Source: Paenibacillus sp. sptzw28 (GTDB lineage: Bacteria > Bacillota > Bacilli > Paenibacillales > Paenibacillaceae). Taken from it: a stretch of 64,000 bases of DNA. The DNA lies in NCBI RefSeq assembly GCF_019550795.1, contig NZ_CP080545.1, positions 2,886,001-2,950,000 of the forward strand, read 5' to 3'. A program made the position numbers and the translations under genes. Below are positions 9,979 through 51,322 of this stretch, one piece after another; within the stretch, counting starts at the first letter, position 1, and the number at the start of each line of letters is the position of its first letter. The notes under the pieces were generated by a model. That model was not told the DNA's origin, did no database searches, and worked only from the letters and a program-made list of their open reading frames with translations.

Positions 9979-11229
9979 CTAACCTCTAATTTGACCGCTC
10001 CCGTAAATGCGGTATTTCGTTGAAGTGAGGGCAGGCAGGCCCATTGGACCCCGCGCATGCAGCTTTTGCGTGCTGATCCCGATTTCGGCCCCGAAGCCGA
10101 ATTCGAAGCCGTCGGTGAAGCGTGTCGACGCATTATGGTAAACTGCCGCCGCGTCGACTTCCTGCAGAAATCTCGCTGCATTCCCCGAGTTCTCAGTTAC
10201 GATACACTCGGAGTGCATTGTACCGTACTGCCGGATATGGGCAAGGGCTTCGTCAAGACTCTCAACGATACGAATATTCAAGATATAGTCGTTATATTCA
10301 GTTGAATAATCGCTTTGTACAGCAGCTTTGGCTTCGGGAAGAAGTTCAAGCGTGCGGCCGCAGCCCCGAATTTCCACGTTTGCAGCCAACATGCGTTCCG
10401 CGATCGTTTTGAGATGACCGGAGGCTGCGAAAGACTCGTGGACAAGCAGCGTTTCCATGGAATTGCAGACCGACGGGCGCTGCACCTTCGCATTGAAAGC
10501 AATATCCGAGGCCATGTTTGGCGCGGCGCTGTCATCAATAAACGTATGGCAAATGCCGGCTCCGGTTTCAATAACCGGAACGGTCGCGTTCTCCACAACG
10601 TTGCGTATAAGAGATGCGCCCCCTCGCGGTATGACGACATCAAGCAAGCCGTTCAGCCTGAGCATTTCGTCCACTGAGGAGCGGCTGGGGTCTTCGATAA
10701 GCTGAAGCGCATCTATGGGCAAATCGGTATGTTCAAGCGCACCGCGCAGCACCTCGACGATGCGCCGGTTCGTTTCGAGTGCGGCCGAACCGCCGCGAAG
10801 GACAACGGTATTGCCGGTCTTGAGACATAAGCCTGCAGCATCGACCGTGACGTTAGGCCTCGCTTCATATATCATTCCGATAACGCCGAGCGGAACCGAT
10901 ATTTTCTCAACGCGCATACCGTTCGGACGGTCAAAGGACTCCAGCGTAAGCCCGACCGGGTCGGGTAACTCCGCCACTTGGCGCAGTCCGTCCGCTATAC
11001 CGGATATGCGGGTCTCGTTCAATGAGAGCCGGTCAAGCAGCGATTCGCTGGTCCCGTTGTCGCGGCCGCGTTTGATATCAACCTCATTGGATAAAATGAT
11101 CGATGATTGCTCCCGCACCAGCGCGTCCGCCATGAGCAGCAGGGCGCTGTTCTTTTGTTCCGTTGTGAGCCTGATCATAGCCGCCGCCGCTTCCTTGGCC
11201 AGCGCCGCTTTCTCTCGTACTTCACTCAT
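9979..11229 (-). CDS. proA: glutamate-5-semialdehyde dehydrogenase (gamma-glutamyl phosphate reductase)
   Basis: 416 residues, aldehyde dehydrogenase superfamily. Reduces gamma-glutamyl phosphate to glutamate-5-semialdehyde, the second step of proline synthesis. Typical ProA blocks are visible: GVIGMIYEARPNVTVDAAGL, RGGSAA, VIPRGGASLI and the catalytic region near NAKVQRPSVCNSMETLL. The TAGGAGGG Shine-Dalgarno sequence lies directly at the end of the hairpin-repeat array that fills the proB-proA gap, so anything the array does would act on translation or transcript stability of proA and the genes behind it. Confidence 0.94.
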   Translation of the reverse strand: MSEVREKAALAKEAAAAMIRLTTEQKNSALLLMADALVREQSSIILSNEVDIKRGRDNGTSESLLDRLSLNETRISGIADGLRQVAELPDPVGLTLESFDRPNGMRVEKISVPLGVIGMIYEARPNVTVDAAGLCLKTGNTVVLRGGSAALETNRRIVEVLRGALEHTDLPIDALQLIEDPSRSSVDEMLRLNGLLDVVIPRGGASLIRNVVENATVPVIETGAGICHTFIDDSAAPNMASDIAFNAKVQRPSVCNSMETLLVHESFAASGHLKTIAERMLAANVEIRGCGRTLELLPEAKAAVQSDYSTEYNDYILNIRIVESLDEALAHIRQYGTMHSECIVTENSGNAARFLQEVDAAAVYHNASTRFTDGFEFGFGAEIGISTQKLHARGPMGLPALTSTKYRIYGSGQIRG

Positions 11230-11246
11230 TTTTTTGCCCTCCTAAA

Positions 11247-11667
11247 AGTTTTCTGCGATACTCCCTTGATAAACGTCTTCACGAGCAGAAAACTCGCTTC
11301 GAAAGCATACGCTTAGTTTTCTGCGATACTCCCTTGATAAACGTCTTCGCGAGCAGAAAACTCGCTTCGAAAGCATACGCTTAGTTTTCTGCGATACTCC
11401 CTTGATAAACGTCTTCGCGAGCAGAAAACTCGCTTCGAAAGCATACGCTTAGTTTTCTGCGATACTCCCTTGATAAACGTCTTCGCGAGCAGAAAACTCG
11501 CTCCGAAAGCATACGCTTAGTTTTCTGCGATACTCCCTTGATAAACGTCTTCGCGAGCAGAAAACTCGCTTCGAAAGCATACGCTTAGTTTTCTGCGATA
11601 CTCCCTTGATAAACGTCTTCGCGAGCAGAAAACTCGCTTCGAAAGCATACGCTTAGTTTTCTGCGAT
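11247..11667 (-). repeat. tandem hairpin-repeat array, 6 x 68 bp plus partial (family 1, proA leader)
   Basis: Six near-identical 68 bp units begin at 11247, 11315, 11383, 11451, 11519 and 11587; a 13 bp partial unit starts at 11655. I saw only two substitutions among full units (one in unit 1, one in unit 4). Read toward proA, each unit can fold with arms GCAGAAAACT and AGTTTTCTGC, an inner mini-hairpin GCTT-TCG-AAGC and a linker. There are no spacers, so it is not CRISPR. The last partial copy runs straight into the proA Shine-Dalgarno. The family recurs in front of parE (38972-39258). Confidence 0.95.
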
Positions 11668-11735
11668 GTTGTCTGCGGCATACTGCCTTGTATATACTTC
11701 CTCGCCAGTATTAAAACCGCCTGGAAAGTATATTT
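11668..11735 (-). repeat. degenerate outer copy of the family 1 repeat
   Basis: The stretch between the intact array and the proB stop retains recognisable pieces of the unit in register: a GAGGAAGTATATA block, a CAAGG-AGTAT block and a degenerate GCAGA(C)AAC arm. It is diverged relative to its neighbours. This suggests an old copy at the far end with newer copies amplified next to proA. Confidence 0.6.
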
Positions 11736-12852
11736 ACAATGTGACCCATTCGTCCCGGTGGATCACTTCGATGCGGCTTACTTCAACGCGCCGTTTGACT
11801 TCTTCGGTGCTGAGCCCGGCCACCGCTTGAATTTGCCATGCGGCGTAATTTACGACACCGCGTCCGATGGTCTGGTGCTGTAAATTCGCCACTTCCACGA
11901 CATCACCGGGGTGGAAGTCGCCGACTATCGTTCGGATACCGGCTGGAAGCAGGCTTTTGCCGCCCTGCAGGAGAGCGGCTTCCGCGCCGTCATCCACTAT
12001 AATTCGTCCTTGAGGAAGCGAGTGGAAGCCGACCCACTGCTTCTTCATCGGCAGATTGTTGAAACGGGTATCGAAATAGGTGCCTTTTCCTTCTCCCCGC
12101 ACTGCGAGCTGCATATCTCCGGGTTCCGCAACTCGCCCGACGAAGGCCGGGATTCCGCCGCGCATCGCAATGCGGGCCGCTTCGATCTTTGAACGCATGC
12201 CTCCCGTTCCGACGGATGAGCCGGAGCCGCCAGCGAGCTGCATAAGCTCCGCGGAAATTTGTTCGACGCGGTCGATTTTCACCGCTTCTGGATTTATACG
12301 CGGGTCTCCCGTGTATAAACCGTCCGTATCAGTCAGGATAAGCAGCCGCTTGGCTTTGACCATATTGGCAACCAGAGCCGAAAGGGTATCGTTATCGCCG
12401 AATTTCAAGCTTAATTCATCCGTCGCGACCGTATCGTTCTCATTGATAATCGGTACAGTTCGCAGCCTTAGAAGCTCATTAATGGTCATAAGCGCATTTT
12501 GAATCCTTTTACGGTTCGAAAAATCGGCGCGCGTAAGCAGAATTTGAGCTGCACAGATGCCGCCGTTAGCACCGTATCTGGCAAAAGCCTCCTGATAAGC
12601 CTGCATAAGCAGCGCCTGACCGACAGCCGCTGCAGCTTGTTTCTCATGAGTAAGTTTTGGCCGCGATTCATATCCTATTCTTCGAAAGCCTGCAGCTACC
12701 GCACCGGAGGTTACAAGCATTACTTCATAACCGTTTTCATGGAGCGAAGCGAGCTCGCGCGAGAAGAAGGCGATTCTGTCGCGATTAAGTCCGCCTTCAT
12801 CGGAGGTAAGCGAGCTGCTGCCGATTTTCACCACTATTCGTTCTTTCATCAT
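11734..12852 (-). CDS. proB: glutamate 5-kinase
   Basis: About 372 residues. Phosphorylates glutamate to gamma-glutamyl phosphate, the first and feedback-controlled step of proline synthesis. N-terminal amino-acid kinase domain (VVKIGSSSLT, LVTSGAVAAG, INENDTVATDEL, LTDTDGLYTGDPR) and a C-terminal PUA domain (about residues 280-360). The frame is open upstream to 12960, but that part overlaps a T-box terminator. The start is ATG 12852 or the adjacent ATG 12849, behind AAAGGGA. It is controlled by the proline T-box just upstream. The gap to proA is unusually long (504 bp) and is occupied by the repeat array. Confidence 0.94.
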   Translation of the reverse strand: MMKERIVVKIGSSSLTSDEGGLNRDRIAFFSRELASLHENGYEVMLVTSGAVAAGFRRIGYESRPKLTHEKQAAAAVGQALLMQAYQEAFARYGANGGICAAQILLTRADFSNRKRIQNALMTINELLRLRTVPIINENDTVATDELSLKFGDNDTLSALVANMVKAKRLLILTDTDGLYTGDPRINPEAVKIDRVEQISAELMQLAGGSGSSVGTGGMRSKIEAARIAMRGGIPAFVGRVAEPGDMQLAVRGEGKGTYFDTRFNNLPMKKQWVGFHSLPQGRIIVDDGAEAALLQGGKSLLPAGIRTIVGDFHPGDVVEVANLQHQTIGRGVVNYAAWQIQAVAGLSTEEVKRRVEVSRIEVIHRDEWVTL

Positions 12853-12880
12853 TTCACGATTCCCTTTCCCAGGTAAAAAA

Positions 12881-13140
12881 TAAAAAAACTTCCGTCCTCT
12901 AGTATATAGAAAGGACGAAAGTATAACTTCCGCGGTACCACCTTTGTTAACGGCCCTCATTACAGTAGGAAAGAGACGCCGTTCGGCTCATAAGCCTGAT
13001 AACAGCAGGCGCTGTCCGGCTCATCGCCGGCCGTTCAGGGGCGGGATTCCGCAGCGGTCGCGGTAAATTCTCACAGCGGATGAATTTACTCTCTGGTCGC
13101 GACTTGGGCAATGCGTACTTGTTCCCCGTCAAAACGTTGG
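12881..13140 (-). promoter_or_regulatory. T-box leader of the proline operon
   Basis: Reading toward proB, the leader holds a long stem I (with AGTACGC, AGAGAG and GTGAGA elements), a candidate proline specifier CCC (13045-13043) in the context GGAATCCCG, and the conserved T-box AAAGGTGGTACCGCG (12945-12931) that contacts the tRNA acceptor end. A terminator follows: an 11 bp stem (12922-12912 with 12898-12888) and a run of T. Established T-box behaviour is read-through when the cognate tRNA is uncharged. The T-box and terminator are read directly. The specifier codon is my best guess from spacing and from the downstream genes. Confidence 0.92.
12882..12922 (-). terminator. T-box intrinsic terminator upstream of proB
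   Basis: The arms ACTTTCGTCCT and AGGACGGAAGT form an 11 bp stem with one G-U pair, followed by TTTTTTT. It is mutually exclusive with the antiterminator that uses the T-box sequence. Confidence 0.9.
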
Positions 13141-24207: not shown

Positions 24208-24345
24208 GCGTAAAAGATGAAAAGTTAATGAAATGATGATAAAAAGTTAATGAAAAACCGCTTGCATAAGGCATTTGACGGTTGCTTATTGTGACATTTT
24301 TCGCTACACTTTGATTCGAGTAGCCCAAACAGGGGAGAGAGAGCA

Positions 24346-37632: not shown

Positions 37633-38611
37633 AATGCTGCCGCTTATTCAGAATGAGACGCTGAAAATTTGGAAAAAAAAACGCTTTTACGTTGTCATTC
37701 TCGTACTGCTCGTACTTATCCCGATATTTACTTACGCTCAGGTGAAAATCGCCGAAAACAACAAGAAAAACTTTAAAGATTGGCGGAATCAGCTGGTTCA
37801 GCAAATTAACGATTACCAGAATGCGCTTTCCAGCGAGAGAATCCCGGAAGATTGGAAACGATACCGTAAAATTGCGGTTCAGCAGCTTCAGTATTATCTC
37901 GATCATGACGTTAATCCCAATTCGCCTGACGGCGTTACCTTCACACGCGGCTTTATGGAAAATTCCGTTTCATTGTTTTACCCGCTGCTCGTGCTTGCGA
38001 TCGCATCCGATCTTGTTTCGGGAGAACGCTCGACCGGTACCATCAAGATGCTGTTGACCAGACCCGTCCGCAGGTGGAAAATCTTATTCAGCAAGCTGGT
38101 GGCGCTGACGCTCTACGTTTCACTAATCGTCGTGACGAGCGGCATCCTCAGTTATCTCATTTCTGGCGCTTTTTTTGGATATACTGGTTGGGATATGCCG
38201 GTATTCACCGGTTTCGTCATTCACGGCTCGACGGTCGACGACGCTTACGTACACGCGGTTCCTCAATGGCTATACATTCTGATGCAATCCGGTCTTATCT
38301 GGGTCTCCTCCATGACAGTGGCCATATTGGCGCTTATGGTATCGGTTCTCATCAGAAGCTCGGCGGCAAGCATTGTGACCATGATGGCGGCGGTTATCGC
38401 CGGAACGATTCTCTCCAGTATGTCCTCGTCTTGGGAAAGCGCAAAATACTTGTTTGCCGTGAACCTCGATTTGACCAATTATTTGTCCGGTTCGCCGCCC
38501 CCGATCAACGGGATGACGCTCTCATTTTCACTCATAACATTGGCGGCTTGGGCGATTGGCGGTCTGATCGTTTCGTTCGGCGTCTTTACGAAACAGGACA
38601 TCTTGAATTAG
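37625..38611 (+). CDS. ABC-2 type transporter permease
   Basis: 328 residues. A charged N-terminal segment with one TM helix (KKRFYVVILVLLVLIPIF...), a ~70-residue external loop, and five further TM helices including the ABC-2 block SGERSTGTIKMLLTRPVRRW (coupling helix). The start is TTG 37625 behind GGAGGGGG, or ATG 37634. It pairs with the upstream ATPase; the exported substrate is unknown. Confidence 0.88.
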   Translation: MDRMLPLIQNETLKIWKKKRFYVVILVLLVLIPIFTYAQVKIAENNKKNFKDWRNQLVQQINDYQNALSSERIPEDWKRYRKIAVQQLQYYLDHDVNPNSPDGVTFTRGFMENSVSLFYPLLVLAIASDLVSGERSTGTIKMLLTRPVRRWKILFSKLVALTLYVSLIVVTSGILSYLISGAFFGYTGWDMPVFTGFVIHGSTVDDAYVHAVPQWLYILMQSGLIWVSSMTVAILALMVSVLIRSSAASIVTMMAAVIAGTILSSMSSSWESAKYLFAVNLDLTNYLSGSPPPINGMTLSFSLITLAAWAIGGLIVSFGVFTKQDILN

Positions 38612-38650
38612 AATAGCTTGAAGCGTTGTCTTGATATGAAAATAATTTGG

Positions 38651-38692
38651 CAGCGGAGGCCGCGTTCGCCGATCTATGGCTCGGCCTCCGAT
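38651..38692 (+). other. GC-rich inverted repeat after the ABC operon
   Basis: GGAGGCCG and CGGCCTCC form a stem around a 20 base loop. No T-run follows, so it is at best a rho-dependent or half terminator. From 38693 to 38900 I see nothing I can assign. Confidence 0.4.
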
Positions 38693-38904
38693 CTGTAGGA
38701 ATTATGATGCCGTGAGCGCTCGCTTCACATGTCTGCTTCGGGATTGTAAGCCGTTCCGCAGACGGAGGATATGTGATAAACGGTTAAAACCGGCTTATAG
38801 CAGCGGTTACGTGCCGGTGGGCCGACTCTAAGCAGGAAAATCCGGCTTAAGTGATGATCTTTACGGAGAGATCTTCTTTGAGTAATAATGATATAACTTG
38901 CGCT

Positions 38905-38971
38905 TCCGTAAATATTTGGTTTATGCTTACGATGCGAGATTTCTCGCATGAAAGAATATTAACGCGCTATT
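38905..38971 (+). repeat. degenerate outer copy of the family 1 repeat
   Basis: A diverged unit lies in register just upstream of the parE array: TATGCTTACGATGCGAGATT matches TACGCTTACGAAGTAAGTTT, followed by a CTCGCATGAAAGAATAT segment matching CTCGCGAAGAAGTATAT. As at proA, the worn copy is the one farthest from the gene. Confidence 0.55.
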
Positions 38972-39258
38972 CGCAGAAAACTTAGCCTACGCTTACGAAG
39001 TAAGTTTTCTGCTCGCGAAGAAGTATATCAGGGTTGTATTCGCAGAAAACTTAGCCTACGCTTACGAAGTAAGTTTTCTGCTCGCGAAGAAGTATGTCAG
39101 GTTGTATTCGCAGAAAACTTAGCCTACGCTTACGAAGTAAGTTTTCTGCTCGCGAAGAAGTATATCAGGGTTGTATTCGCAGAAAACTTAGCCTACGCTT
39201 ACGAAGTAAGTTTTCTGCTCGCGAAGAAGTATATCAGGGTTGTATTCGCAGAAAACTT
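38972..39258 (+). repeat. tandem hairpin-repeat array, 4 x 68-69 bp plus partial (family 1, parE leader)
   Basis: Units begin at 38972, 39041, 39109 and 39178 (69, 68, 69, 69 bp), and a 12 bp partial unit starts at 39247. Each unit folds with 12 bp arms GCAGAAAACTTA and TAAGTTTTCTGC. The second unit lacks one G, which breaks any reading frame through the array. The sequence is about 80 percent identical by eye to the repeat in front of proA and lies in the same orientation relative to its gene. The partial unit ends in the parE Shine-Dalgarno. Confidence 0.95.
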
Positions 39259-39272
39259 TTAGGGGGACAAGT

Positions 39273-41249
39273 ATGACTGAGCAGTTGGATCTGTTTGCGG
39301 GCGAAACTTCTTCGGCTGCTAATCGCAATTATGAGGCCGACGACATACAAGTGCTGGAGGGGTTAACCGCTGTCCGCAAACGGCCCGGGATGTATATCGG
39401 GAGCACCACGAGCTCGGGATTGCACCATCTCGTTTGGGAAATCGTCGATAATGCGGTTGATGAGCATTTGGCCAAATTTTGTTCCGCGATCGAGGTCGTT
39501 ATTCACTCAGACGGCTCCATTATGGTTCGCGACAATGGCCGGGGTATTCCGACGGGAATGCACAAGACCGGAATCCCGACGCCGCAGGTCGTCTTCACGA
39601 TTCTGCATGCCGGCGGAAAGTTCGGCGGCGGGGGCTATAAGAAGTCCGGCGGCCTTCACGGTGTGGGTGCATCCGTTACGAACGCGCTTTCGGAATGGCT
39701 TGAGGTCGAAATATCTCGGGATGGAAAAATACATAAACAGCGTTTCGAGTATTGGATCGATAAAGACGGCAAAGAGCATGTCGGTGAGCCGGTCAAAGGG
39801 CTTGAAATAATAGGAAACACGAACCGGACCGGCACCAAGGTTACGTTCAAGCCGGATGCGCGCGTTTTCCATGGAAACACGTCCATCAATTACGACACTT
39901 TGTCCGAACGTCTGCAGGAAATCGCATTTCTGAACTCGGGCCTCAAAGTGACCGTCAAAGACGAGCGAAGCGGCAAGCAGGATGTTTTTCATTATGAAGG
40001 CGGCGCGCGACAATTCGTGCAGTACCTGAACGAAGACAAGACCGTACTTCACGACGTGATTCATTTTGCGGCGGAACGAGATGATATTGAAGTTGAAGTG
40101 GCGCTGCAGTATAACGACGGCTATACGGAGACGATGGCTTCATTCGTCAACTCCATCCCGACGCGCGGCGGCGGTACTCATGAGACGGGATTTAAAACCG
40201 CTTATACACGGGTCATGAACGATTATGCGCGTAAAAATTCGCTTATCAAGGAAAAGGACAAGAACCTTGAAGGCAACGACCTGCGGGAAGGCATGATGGC
40301 TGTCATCAACATCAAGATGTCGGAGGTGGAATTCGTCGGACAGACGAAGGACCAGCTCGGCAGTGCATCGGCCAGAAGTGCGGTAGACGCTATCGTATCG
40401 GATAAAATGCAGGTGTTCCTCGAAGAAAATCCGCAGGTTGCGCAGATGCTTCTTAAGAAATCGATCCAAGCGTCAAGAGCCCGCGAAGCGGCGCGCAAGG
40501 CGCGCGAGGAAATCCGCAGCGGCAAGAAAAAGAGCGAAAGCTCCAATCTTGGCGGCAAGCTTACTCCGGCTCAATCGAAGGATTTCACGCGCAATGAGCT
40601 GTTTATTGTCGAAGGTGATTCCGCCGGCGGTTCCGCGAAACAGGGCCGGGACTCGAAACACCAAGCAATTCTCCCGCTAAAGGGAAAACCGATGAACCCG
40701 GAGAAAGCCAAGCTGATCGATATTCTCAAGAACGACGAATACAAGGCGATTATCGCTGCGATCGGCTCCGGTATCGGACCCGAGTTTGACGCGGAATCGT
40801 GCAACTATAACAAAATCATTATCATGACGGATGCCGATACGGACGGCGCTCACATTCAAGTGCTGCTTCTAACGTTCTTCTACCGCTATATGAAGCCGCT
40901 TATTGATTCGGGCCGTGTCTTTATCGCCCAACCGCCTCTGTATAAGATTTCCCGTAAAACCGGCAAGCTGAATACGGTCCGTTATGCATGGACCGACGAG
41001 CAGCTGCAAAACTATTTGAAAGAGTTCGGCAAACAGTTCGAGCTGCAGCGATATAAGGGGCTTGGCGAAATGAACCCCGACCAGCTGTGGGAGACGACGA
41101 TGAATCCGGAATCGCGGACGCTGCTTCAGGTTCAAATCGAAGATGCAGCAAAAGCCGAACGCCGCGTATCGACGCTGATGGGCGATAAAGTCGATCCGCG
41201 AAAACGATGGATCGTCGAGAACGTAGATTTTACCGAATATGAGGAATAG
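39273..41249 (+). CDS. parE: DNA topoisomerase IV subunit B
   Basis: 658 residues. The ATPase and TOPRIM subunit of topoisomerase IV, which decatenates chromosomes with ParC. GHKL ATP site: [20 protein letters not shown] and [22 protein letters not shown] motifs: [10 protein letters not shown] and the metal-binding DADTDGAH. The frame is open upstream into the repeat array; the start at 39273 (MTEQLDLF) follows TTTTAGGGGG. parC follows after 14 bases, which together with 658-residue length favours topoisomerase IV over gyrase. Confidence 0.94.
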
Positions 41250-41263
41250 GAGAAAATAGCGCC

Positions 41264-43705
41264 ATGAGCATCTTAGAACAGTTTTTGCCGGCGTTTCTGG
41301 AGGAGGTCGTAGGCGACCGCTTCGGACGCTATTCCAAATACATCATTCAAGACCGTGCCATTCCTGATGTGCGCGACGGACTGAAGCCTGTCCAGAGGCG
41401 TATTTTATACGCGATGTATGATGCAGGGAACACGCCTGACAAGCCCTACCGCAAGTCGGCCAAAACAGTGGGCGACGTTATGGGTAACTATCACCCGCAC
41501 GGCGACTCCTCGATATACGAAGGTATGGTCCGTATGGCTCAGCCTTGGAAGATGGGGCATACGCTCGTTGACGGCCATGGCAACTGGGGTTCCCTTGACG
41601 ATGATCCGGCGGCGGCGATGCGTTACACGGAAGCCCGGCTGTCCGCTATCGCGATGGAGCTCCTTCGGGATATTGAGAAACGGACGGTCTTATTCAAAGA
41701 CAATTTCGATAATACGACGAAAGAACCGGTCGTACTGCCTTCCCGCTATCCGAATCTGCTTGTTAATGGGGTCAGCGGTATTTCCTCCGGGTTCGCTACC
41801 GAAATTCCTCCGCACAACCTGCGCGAAGTGATCGACGCCTGTGTTGCGGTAATGGAGAACCCGCAGCTTGCGCTCGAGCAATTAATGGCTATCGTAAAAG
41901 GACCTGATTTCCCGACCGGCGGACTTATAATGGGCGAGGAAGGCATTCGGGAAGCGTACGAAACCGGAAAAGGCCGGATCCATGTCCGTTCAAAAACGTC
42001 TATCGAAGACATGAAGGGCGGACGCGAGCAAATCGTAATTACGGAAATACCATACCAGGTCGTAAAGTCACGCCTTGTTACGGCAATGGAAAACATCCGG
42101 ATCGAGAAAAAGGTTGAAGGTATCGCAGAAGTCCGCGACGAAAGCGGCCGCAACGGGCTTCGCATCGTCGTTGAGCTGAAGAAGGACGCCGACGCTCAGG
42201 GAATTCTCGCTTATTTGCTGAAGAAAACGGACCTCCAGGTGACCTATAACTTCAATATGGTCGCCATTGTGAATAAAACGCCCAAGCAGCTCGGCTTGAA
42301 GGACATGATGACGGCGTACATCGCTCACCAGAGAGAAGTCGTTACACACCGCACCAGGTATGAGCTTGAGAAAGCGGAAGACCGTGCCCACGTTCTGGAA
42401 GGTCTCGTAAAAGCGCTTAATTTGCTCGATGAGATCATTGCTGCGATTAAAGCGTCAAAAAACCGGCAGGATGCACAGAACAACCTCGTTGAGAAGTTCG
42501 GTTTCACCGAACGTCAAGCCGATGCGATACTGACGCTCCAGCTTTACCGGTTGACCAATCTTGAAATTACCTCACTCGAAAAGGAACTGAAGGAGATTCA
42601 GAAAAGGATCGCCTATTTTCGTTCCATTCTCGCATCCGAGAAGAAGCTGATCGGCGTGATCAAGGACGAACTGCTTGAGATTCGCGAGAAATACGGCATT
42701 GACCGACGTTCCGATATTCAGGGTGAAGTAGAGGAGCTCAAAGTGAACTTGGAGGTTATCGTACCGGCCGAGGATGTGCTTGTCACACTCAGCCAGAACG
42801 GTTATATCAAACGAACCTCCAAGCTGTCATTTACAAGGTCCGGTGGCGAGCTTGGCAGCGCAGGAGTGAAGGAAGGCGACGTCGTCCGTACATTGCTTGA
42901 CGTTAGTACCATAGACCAGCTCCTGCTGTTCACGCGTAAAGGCCAATACTATCAGCTGCCGGTGCATCTGATCCCGGAATTTAAATGGAAAGATACCGGC
43001 ACGGCGGTTGTGAATGTCGTACCGCTGCCGAAGGACGATTCGATCGTAAGCGTCATTCCGGTGAAAGACTTTGAAGAAGCGGACCGCTCGCTTGTGTTTG
43101 TTACCAAGCGGGGGCAGGTAAAGCGTACGGAGCTGAAGGAGTACCGCTCGACGCGTTCAACCGCTATAGCGGCCGTCAAGCTCGGGGAAGGTGACGATGT
43201 GCTTCGCGTATCCCTCAGTGACGGAGGTCAGGATTTGCTGCTTGTGAGCAAGCTCGGCATGAGTATTCGTTTCATGGAGAGCGAGGTCAACGCAATGGGA
43301 CGCGTTGCTGCGGGTGTACGCGGCATTCAGCTTAAGGAAGAGGATGAAATCGTGGCTGCCGAATGGGTGTCGGGCGATGAGGGTGAAGTGCTTGTCCTGA
43401 CTGAGCTCGGCTACGGCAAACGGTCGCTTCTGCTGGACTATCCGGTACAAGGCCGGGGCGGCAAGGGCGTTGCTACCTTTGAATTCAAAGAAGGCAAGCG
43501 GGTACGCTCCAACGGTGAGCGGCTTATCGGCGCGCTGCTTTGCAAAGAAGAACGCGAGCTTCTGCTTTTGACTTCCTCAGGCGCGCAGCTCACGGCTTCA
43601 ACCGAGAAAGCGCCGATCGAGGACCGGAAATCAATCGGAAAACTCCTCGCACCCGTCGACAAAAAGGATGTCCTTACTACCTTCTTCCCAAAGGCGGATG
43701 TGTAG
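41264..43705 (+). CDS. parC: DNA topoisomerase IV subunit A
   Basis: 813 residues. The DNA-cleaving subunit. The catalytic Tyr lies in [13 protein letters not shown]. The quinolone region reads [20 protein letters not shown] with the usual Ser, i.e. a susceptible-type sequence by inspection. A long coiled coil (about 370-490) and C-terminal beta-propeller blades (from about residue 500) follow. GGAGAAA precedes the ATG. It ends eight bases from a convergent small gene. Confidence 0.95.
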
Positions 43706-51116: not shown

Positions 51117-51303
51117 ATTACAATCGTCATTCGGGTTATCGAATGAACGATTGCAATTATTACTGGCAACCGAGCTGCTTGGTAATTCCGCAGCTAACGG
51201 TTGCAATTTTCACTGACAACCGAGCTGCGTTAATAACCCGCAGCTAACGGTTGCAATTTTCACTGACAACCGAGCTGCGTTAATAACCCGCAGCTAACGG
51301 TTG
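51117..51303 (+). repeat. tandem hairpin-repeat array, 50 bp units (family 2, araA leader)
   Basis: Three clear units start at 51167, 51217 and 51267, with a diverged fourth at 51117. Each contains a hairpin with outer arms CAACCG/CGGTTG and inner arms GCTGCG/CGCAGC. In the diverged copy both arm pairs changed together (CAATCG/CGATTG and CATTCG/CGAATG), so pairing is preserved. The last unit ends 17 bases before the araA ATG. Confidence 0.9.
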
Positions 51304-51322
51304 CAGTATAAAGGAGGATATT

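Follow-up and report, generated by a model that had tools for sequence, protein, structure and literature searches.

The window analysed here is a 64,000-nt stretch of the Paenibacillus sp. sptzw28 genome (contig NZ_CP080545.1, positions 2,886,001 to 2,950,000, forward strand). The genome is a single contig of 6.10 Mb. The window holds two arrays of tandem repeats, each of which runs into the Shine-Dalgarno sequence (SD) of a gene, parE on the plus strand and proA on the minus strand. The features are given below, where R1 denotes a covariance model with 10 pairs built from 15 sequences.

9979..11229, minus strand: proA (NCBIfam PRK00197, 592.6 bits)
11238..11667, minus strand: array of proA, with roughly six units of 68 bp followed by a half unit and the SD AGGAGG (TRF; R1 90.7 and 65.7–68.2 bits; the 3′ unit is one of the R1 training sequences)
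11734..12960, minus strand: proB (NCBIfam TIGR01027, 431.3 bits)
38922..38985, plus strand: degenerate 5′-most unit of the parE array (R1 22.8 bits, E 0.00078)
38972..39246, plus strand: four tandem units (69, 68, 69 and 69 bp) 5′ of parE (TRF; unit lengths; R1 53.8–58.1 bits)
39194..39266, plus strand: gene-proximal hairpin of parE, with core, arm, loop, arm and the SD AGGGGG (R1 79.4 bits; itself one of the 15 training sequences)
39273..41249, plus strand: parE, topoisomerase IV subunit B (NCBIfam TIGR01058, 949.8 bits)
41264..43705, plus strand: parC/gyrA-type topoisomerase A subunit (NCBIfam PRK05560, 970.7 bits, and TIGR01061, 935.3 bits, both above cut-off)

The parE array is placed by TRF at 38968–39258, with a period of 69, 4.2 copies and 98% matches. 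The units measure 69, 68, 69 and 69 bp, in agreement with the four units of 68–69 bp counted in the first-pass annotation, and are followed by a half unit that leads into AGGGGG, 6 nt before the ATG of parE. The downstream genes had been read as parE and parC. NCBIfam identifies the first as ParE, and the protein after it clears the cut-offs of both GyrA and ParC and is taken as ParC by its position. Between proB and proA stands the proA array, for which TRF gives 11247–11667 on the minus strand, a period of 68 and 6.2 copies. The two arrays, which had been judged by eye to be about 80% alike, show 84% identity across 291 aligned columns and 85% across the last 90 bases. They also have, as described before, the same orientation relative to the gene and an end that runs into an SD before the ATG, namely CGCAGAAAACTTTTAGGAGG, 8 nt from the ATG of proA, and CGCAGAAAACTTTTAGGGGG, 6 nt from that of parE. 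The two arrays belong to one family. The window contains 10 occurrences of GCAGAAAACTT, where 0.02 would be expected.

All three TRF arrays in the window with a period of at least 50 end at an SD. The array at 51146–51305 (plus strand; 50 bp, 3.2 copies) ends just before the araA SD AAGGAGG and folds very well (z −6.5). It was considered as a member of the family and rejected, as its sequence is unrelated and its hairpin pattern matches only its own three copies in the genome. An 11-bp tandem repeat, ATGAAAAGTTA, is found at 24217–24256 (3.6 copies).

The unit of the family has the order AAGCNT-ATGCTTNCGAWGYN-arm-loop-complementary arm, followed by a few nucleotides and the SD, with ATGCTTNCGAWGY as the conserved 5′ core. 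The 5′ arm is mostly AGTTTT with 1–4 further nucleotides and the 3′ arm mostly AAAACT, the two arms pair, and the loop either spans about 30 nt or is short and TTCG-like. Neighbouring arms differ in 61 of 230 triples, and in these the pairing Y(n)–X(n+1) is stronger in 44 and the pairing Y(n)–X(n) in 14, with 3 ties (p 1e-4 for a comparison in which rows are not independent and arm windows are crude, some of them misplaced). Over all 230 triples, Y(n)–X(n+1) is stronger in 95 and the within-unit pairing in 61. The within-unit hairpin was therefore rejected as the main structure, since pairing between units is the stronger where arms differ. At one locus, L379, two hairpins alternate, each self-matched. 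This alternation and the Y(n)–X(n+1) pairing make an SD-facing hairpin a more likely candidate for the real unit than the repeat as it was read at first. It is clear from the mosaic arrays that the individual units are self-contained hairpins.

The stem was tested on the 150 rows listed for a pattern in which no stem is required. Arms from the same locus pair more strongly than arms dealt among loci, with means of −5.75 and −4.69 kcal/mol (0 of 10,000 permutations), and none of 5,000 permutations reaches the same-locus pairing when arms are dealt within genomes. Arm lengths are correlated (r 0.82, n = 135), the highest value in 20,000 permutations being 0.42, and the top column pair by mutual information among the 150 rows listed lies in the stem. 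Wholly different stems that keep their complementarity are also present (GCGTTTTC/GAAAACGC, GACTTTGC/GCAAAGTC, AGTTATCC/GGATAACT and AGCTTTAC/GTAAAGCT). In 36 long-loop sites of the sptzw28 genome, a set that leans towards pairing because R1, the finder of most sites, models this stem, changes on both sides occur in 6 of 10 stem pairs. In the same 36 sites, taken from 54 listed after 12 short-loop and 6 irregular or other long-loop sites had been excluded by hand, 15 tested pairs, the SD helix included, give 28 double-changed cells, where the shuffles average 8.5 and 0 of 500 reach that number. The family thus has a covarying stem in transcribed orientation, as in a structured RNA leader.

RNAalifold returned no structure on alignment A4 or on a 140-row alignment (default scoring), and it returns the hairpin with ribosum scoring on 103 hand-picked rows. 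The terminal units of the window fold little better than shuffled sequences (z −0.87 and −1.11). No excess of G-U over A-C was found inside the stem (1 against 7; 3 against 2 in short-loop stems; 8 against 20 in another count). A whole-arm count of 263 hairpins gave 109 G-U against 22 A-C, with 107 of the 109 at the first position, the base before AGTTTT; in the count that gave 8 against 20, G-U pairs at the outer end numbered 7. G-U pairs at the outer end hint no more than weakly at pairing in RNA at that position, and the lack of a G-U excess inside the stem means that the arms could also pair in DNA.

A search of the whole genome with the exact SD-fused end, allowing up to three mismatches, gave 20 matches, almost all before a start codon, against 3 for the reversed control. 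R1 gave at least 149 hits at E ≤ 1, grouped as at least 53 sites, a lower bound from 150 scored candidates of 2516 at first look. A core-only pattern gave 169 matches against 2 in the control. This pattern asks for no SD, yet all of the matches listed, a part of the 169, fall in SD-adjacent sites that are included in the count, two of them new. A later pattern added four sites, for a total of at least 59. An open reading frame (ORF) of at least 60 aa starts −1 to 13 nt after the SD at 56 of the 59 sites (53 of 55 and 3 of 4). Site L377 has a 32-aa ORF at 9 nt; at site L305 the usual starts give only a 31-aa ORF and a longer frame can be read by eye from an ATT; site L106 has no ORF after the SD and looks degenerate. 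The commonest end point of homology between unrelated loci of the genome is exactly the final G of the SD (58 of the 150 best pairs).

The genes that carry the element include, by NCBIfam name, parE, proA, atpD, mutS, pdhB, hslV, flgG, pth and those for alanine dehydrogenase and fructose-bisphosphate aldolase. For uvrA, the best family was assigned from the first 439 aa with a score below the cut-off. Judging by N-terminal sequence, the element also appears to precede gyrA, rplO, ffh, thrS, tatA, cheW, cheY, tsaE and hrcA. No functional theme was seen among these genes. By mechanical ORF calls, the upstream ORF is on the same strand at 34 of the 53 sites with a call, and at 29 of these 34 it is within 150 nt, so that the hairpin lies between cistrons just before the downstream ribosome-binding site (RBS). 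At the other 19 of the 53 the upstream ORF is on the opposite strand, and a strictly intercistronic role was rejected on that ground. The element points with the leading strand at 47 of 59 sites if the origin is near gyrB, a position that is assumed, and no strand bias follows from this count. Before hrcA, it is located 3′ of a TTAGCACTC-N9-GAGTGCTAA repeat, which we take to be CIRCE-like, and because it is downstream of that repeat it is probably transcribed as part of the leader.

A long array of short units precedes mutS (site L078, at about 3005339–3006935 of the genome), and the thrS array (L103) has a nearly identical unit. A coding function of the repeats was set aside, as periods such as 67, 68 and 70 bp lose the reading frame.

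Beyond this genome, R1 (E ≤ 0.001, 127 candidates scored per genome) found matches in 25 of 39 genomes, sptzw28 included. All 22 genomes of the genus are among them, with 2 to 79 matches in each of the 21 besides sptzw28, as are 3 of 17 others. A scan of named sequences yielded at least 120 stretches; of 80 loci examined, two are from Brevibacillus panacihumi and the rest from Paenibacillus or Paenibacillaceae. At 77 of the 80, an ORF that is 60 aa or longer, or that runs off the locus, begins 0–11 nt after AGGAGG, with a mode of 7. A second core is absent from the 200 nt upstream at 27 of the 80 (three of the 27 are cut by the locus edge), and single units therefore exist. A pattern of the core and TTAGGAGG, with the stem left free, matched 90 of 197 genomes of the family, sptzw28 included, with 0 control matches; the named loci are the basis for assigning these genomes to Paenibacillaceae. 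A draw across the class gave matches in 12 of 299 genomes, 10 of 27 within the family and 2 of 272 outside it, and one control match, in a third genome outside the family. With the family assigned from the named loci, the element is thus nearly restricted to Paenibacillaceae.

Both matches outside the family are letter-identical to the two Brevibacillus panacihumi loci, and the gene concerned carries the element in Paenibacillus too. This gene, with the N-terminal sequence SYIVDFKNVS or a close variant, has the element in Brevibacillus panacihumi and several Paenibacillus (loci L167 and L182; Paenibacillus L181, L183, L211 and L214), which suggests that gene and leader were transferred together between genera. 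A viral or plasmid origin was rejected: the exact pattern has 1 match in 2.9 million viral contigs, and a blastn search of plasmids and phages with the parE array gave no hit.

The first-pass annotation had proposed a dispersed, directional leader element, to be sought with a covariance model across Firmicutes. This proposal is supported. The searches with R1 and with patterns returned many gene-linked copies in this genome and its relatives, in a family larger than had been supposed, and the copies respect gene orientation, pointing to an ORF at 56 of 59 sites here and at 77 of 80 named loci. The description of the repeat as fused to the SD has to be amended. The elements do abut the SD, but the SD need not belong to them, as seen at parE and rplO, where the bases around the SD are largely alike with and without the element.

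Presence of the element at the same gene varies between species, and many orthologous genes have none or a decayed one. Upstream of parE, an intact core is found within 450 nt in 9 of the 22 genus genomes (5, 5, 4, 3, 3, 3, 1, 1 and 1 cores), one genome (G015) matches the core pattern with what is by eye a degraded remnant, and 12 of 22 have no core. At rplO, 2 of 22 have intact cores, diverged or degraded hairpins are present in many, and four genomes (G017, G021, G016 and G007) have short spacers of 46–50 nt. The rplO upstream regions L350–L353, from genus relatives that lack the consensus core, are rearranged and retain a well-paired hairpin, by eye roughly ACGAGTTT..AAACTCGT inside TGCTTTC..GAAAGCA. 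The 30 cdd loci listed among 41 genomes include arrays, single units, decayed remnants and sites that look unfilled (G229 is not readable in this way). Two different cdd units stand in opposite order in G234 and G237. The cdd arms are 4+4 in G244 and G063, one arm is shortened in G219, and both are shortened in G231. No target-site duplication was evident by eye at the parE, cdd and rplO orthologs, among which no near-identical pair of filled and empty sites was found.

We regard the family as secure, together with its directionality and its hairpin: it is a dispersed family of hairpins directly 5′ of the SD, in sense orientation at start codons, with tandem and mosaic arrays. We prefer, with moderate confidence, the reading in which the hairpin acts in mRNA, because the element stands on the side that is transcribed, borders directly on the SD and has preserved its hairpin. 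In the most likely form of this reading, an mRNA leader hairpin of fixed orientation spreads to positions next to the RBS and would have modest effects in cis. Transcribed as a leader or intercistronic hairpin adjoining the RBS, the element may tune ribosome loading or shield the downstream cistron from decay, and its conserved core may be read by a factor. New units would be added next to the gene, arrays would grow by local duplication, and distal units would decay.

The element may instead be a selfish or neutral DNA repeat, a unit forming a hairpin in single-stranded DNA and inserting just 5′ of SD-like sequences, so that its orientation and gene linkage come from the target and not from a function in mRNA. 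We regard this as the main alternative, possible and tentatively held. It accounts for the varying presence and for the absence of a common theme among the genes no less well than the mRNA reading does, and the intact core at only 9 of 22 parE genes, the range at cdd from unfilled-looking sites through arrays to remnants, the largely preserved bases around the SD at parE and rplO, the reversed order of the two cdd units in G234 and G237 and the missing G-U excess inside the stem all agree with it. Two observations are against it: a Y1 transposase, the one type of enzyme sought, is absent from 21 of the 22 genus genomes, including sptzw28, and the stepwise changes of the cdd arms suggest that the hairpin is kept after arrival. 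The mRNA-acting and selfish readings are compatible with each other. A bolder proposal, which we consider unlikely, is that an undescribed self-spreading regulatory hairpin homes to RBSs, where it would be inserted unit by unit, in one orientation, before the SD, and that it would place dozens of housekeeping genes under shared post-transcriptional control through a factor.

Sequestration of the SD was at first favoured as the main mechanism. In this model, which we now hold to be improbable, CTTNC pairs with GGAGG and an alternative hairpin frees the SD, as in a thermometer or a switch controlled by a ligand or protein. Minimum free energy (MFE) folds of some loci do pair GCTTCC with GGAGGC, the ribosum RNAalifold run on the hand-picked subset predicts the SD helix, and this helix is 90% paired in the 36 sites of the genome, its sides carrying hardly any covariation because they are mostly fixed by the search pattern. 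The arms also allow a competing within-unit hairpin, and the isolated parE unit favours the within-unit form and the proA unit the SD-side form. By contrast, the mean predicted anti-SD/SD pairing is only 0.14–0.24, and in 33 of 103 rows an A stands at the N of CTTNC and breaks the pair. Predicted SD accessibility is 0.378 for 65 long-loop and 0.425 for 15 short-loop elements, against 0.412 for 87 control SDs from the same loci (long-loop against control, p 0.36). Sequestration as the main mechanism was dropped on the basis of this control and of the frequent A. Nor was thermometer behaviour predicted, as accessibility rises only from 0.36 at 20 °C to 0.46 at 55 °C and resembles the controls at 37 °C.

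RNA thermometers such as ROSE and fourU, and the cis-regulatory leaders of Rfam, are likewise structured leaders adjoining an SD. The present family differs from them: the arrays searched match nothing in Rfam, the SD is predicted to be no more occluded than control SDs, and no theme was seen among the genes. Rfam 15 gave no match at E ≤ 5 in 38600–39400, and with gathering scores over 20 sources it found only T-box, L10 leader and 5_ureB, none at an array. The known leaders (L10 leader and T-box, at L003 188–351 and L021 624–900, minus strand) are located away from arrays.

REP and REPIN elements of Pseudomonas and enterobacteria are, like the present family with its 59 sites, short hairpins dispersed outside genes in many copies. 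A REPIN consists of two inverted REPs and is linked to RAYT transposases (PMC3116915). Mobilisation of a repeat of this type by a REP-associated Y1 transposase would account for palindromes that are dispersed next to genes and share a conserved foot motif, but is disfavoured and, in our judgement, very improbable. The elements here have one orientation relative to the gene, abut the SD and form direct arrays; the Y1 family PF01797 is present in 1 of 22 genus genomes, not in that of sptzw28 (G000), against 5 of 14 control genomes; and no reverse-complement core lies in the up to 1000 nt upstream at any of the 80 named loci. Local replication slippage alone, with look-alike repeats arising independently, fits the near-identity of units within many loci and the varying array lengths, but the same core at 59 sites here and in 90 of 197 family genomes, the single-copy elements at 27 of 80 named loci and the mosaic arrays refute it as the sole explanation and leave it scarcely credible; the earlier statement that slippage is not enough stands for the dispersed family, with the qualification that local duplication is also real.

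MITEs, RUP, BOX and ERIC are also small dispersed repeats near genes, sometimes modular. Here the position is locked to the SD, and a terminal inverted repeat or target-site duplication was not seen. The main text of a review of MITEs does not mention Shine-Dalgarno sequences, ribosome binding or hairpins (PMC10969869). Stem-loops that process or stabilise transcripts between genes are known from cggR-gapA. In the cip-cel operon, intergenic stem-loops set the stability of the flanking transcripts (PMC10311766). Those stem-loops belong to one operon, whereas a single family here precedes dozens of unrelated genes and is not always intra-operonic. No earlier description of the element was found in searches of open-access papers without their supplements, and the core sequence used as a literature query returned unrelated matches only.

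Under either main reading, the family is large, easy to recognise, without a match in Rfam 15 where searched, and directly testable. If it is selfish, these would be repeats whose insertion site is the RBS itself, placed there by some enzyme. If the hairpins act in mRNA, they would constitute a portable post-transcriptional module before housekeeping genes (parE, atpD, mutS, hslV and others) that differs between species, and the leaders of the same gene in close relatives would offer a natural experiment on the way expression is set by a hairpin next to the RBS.
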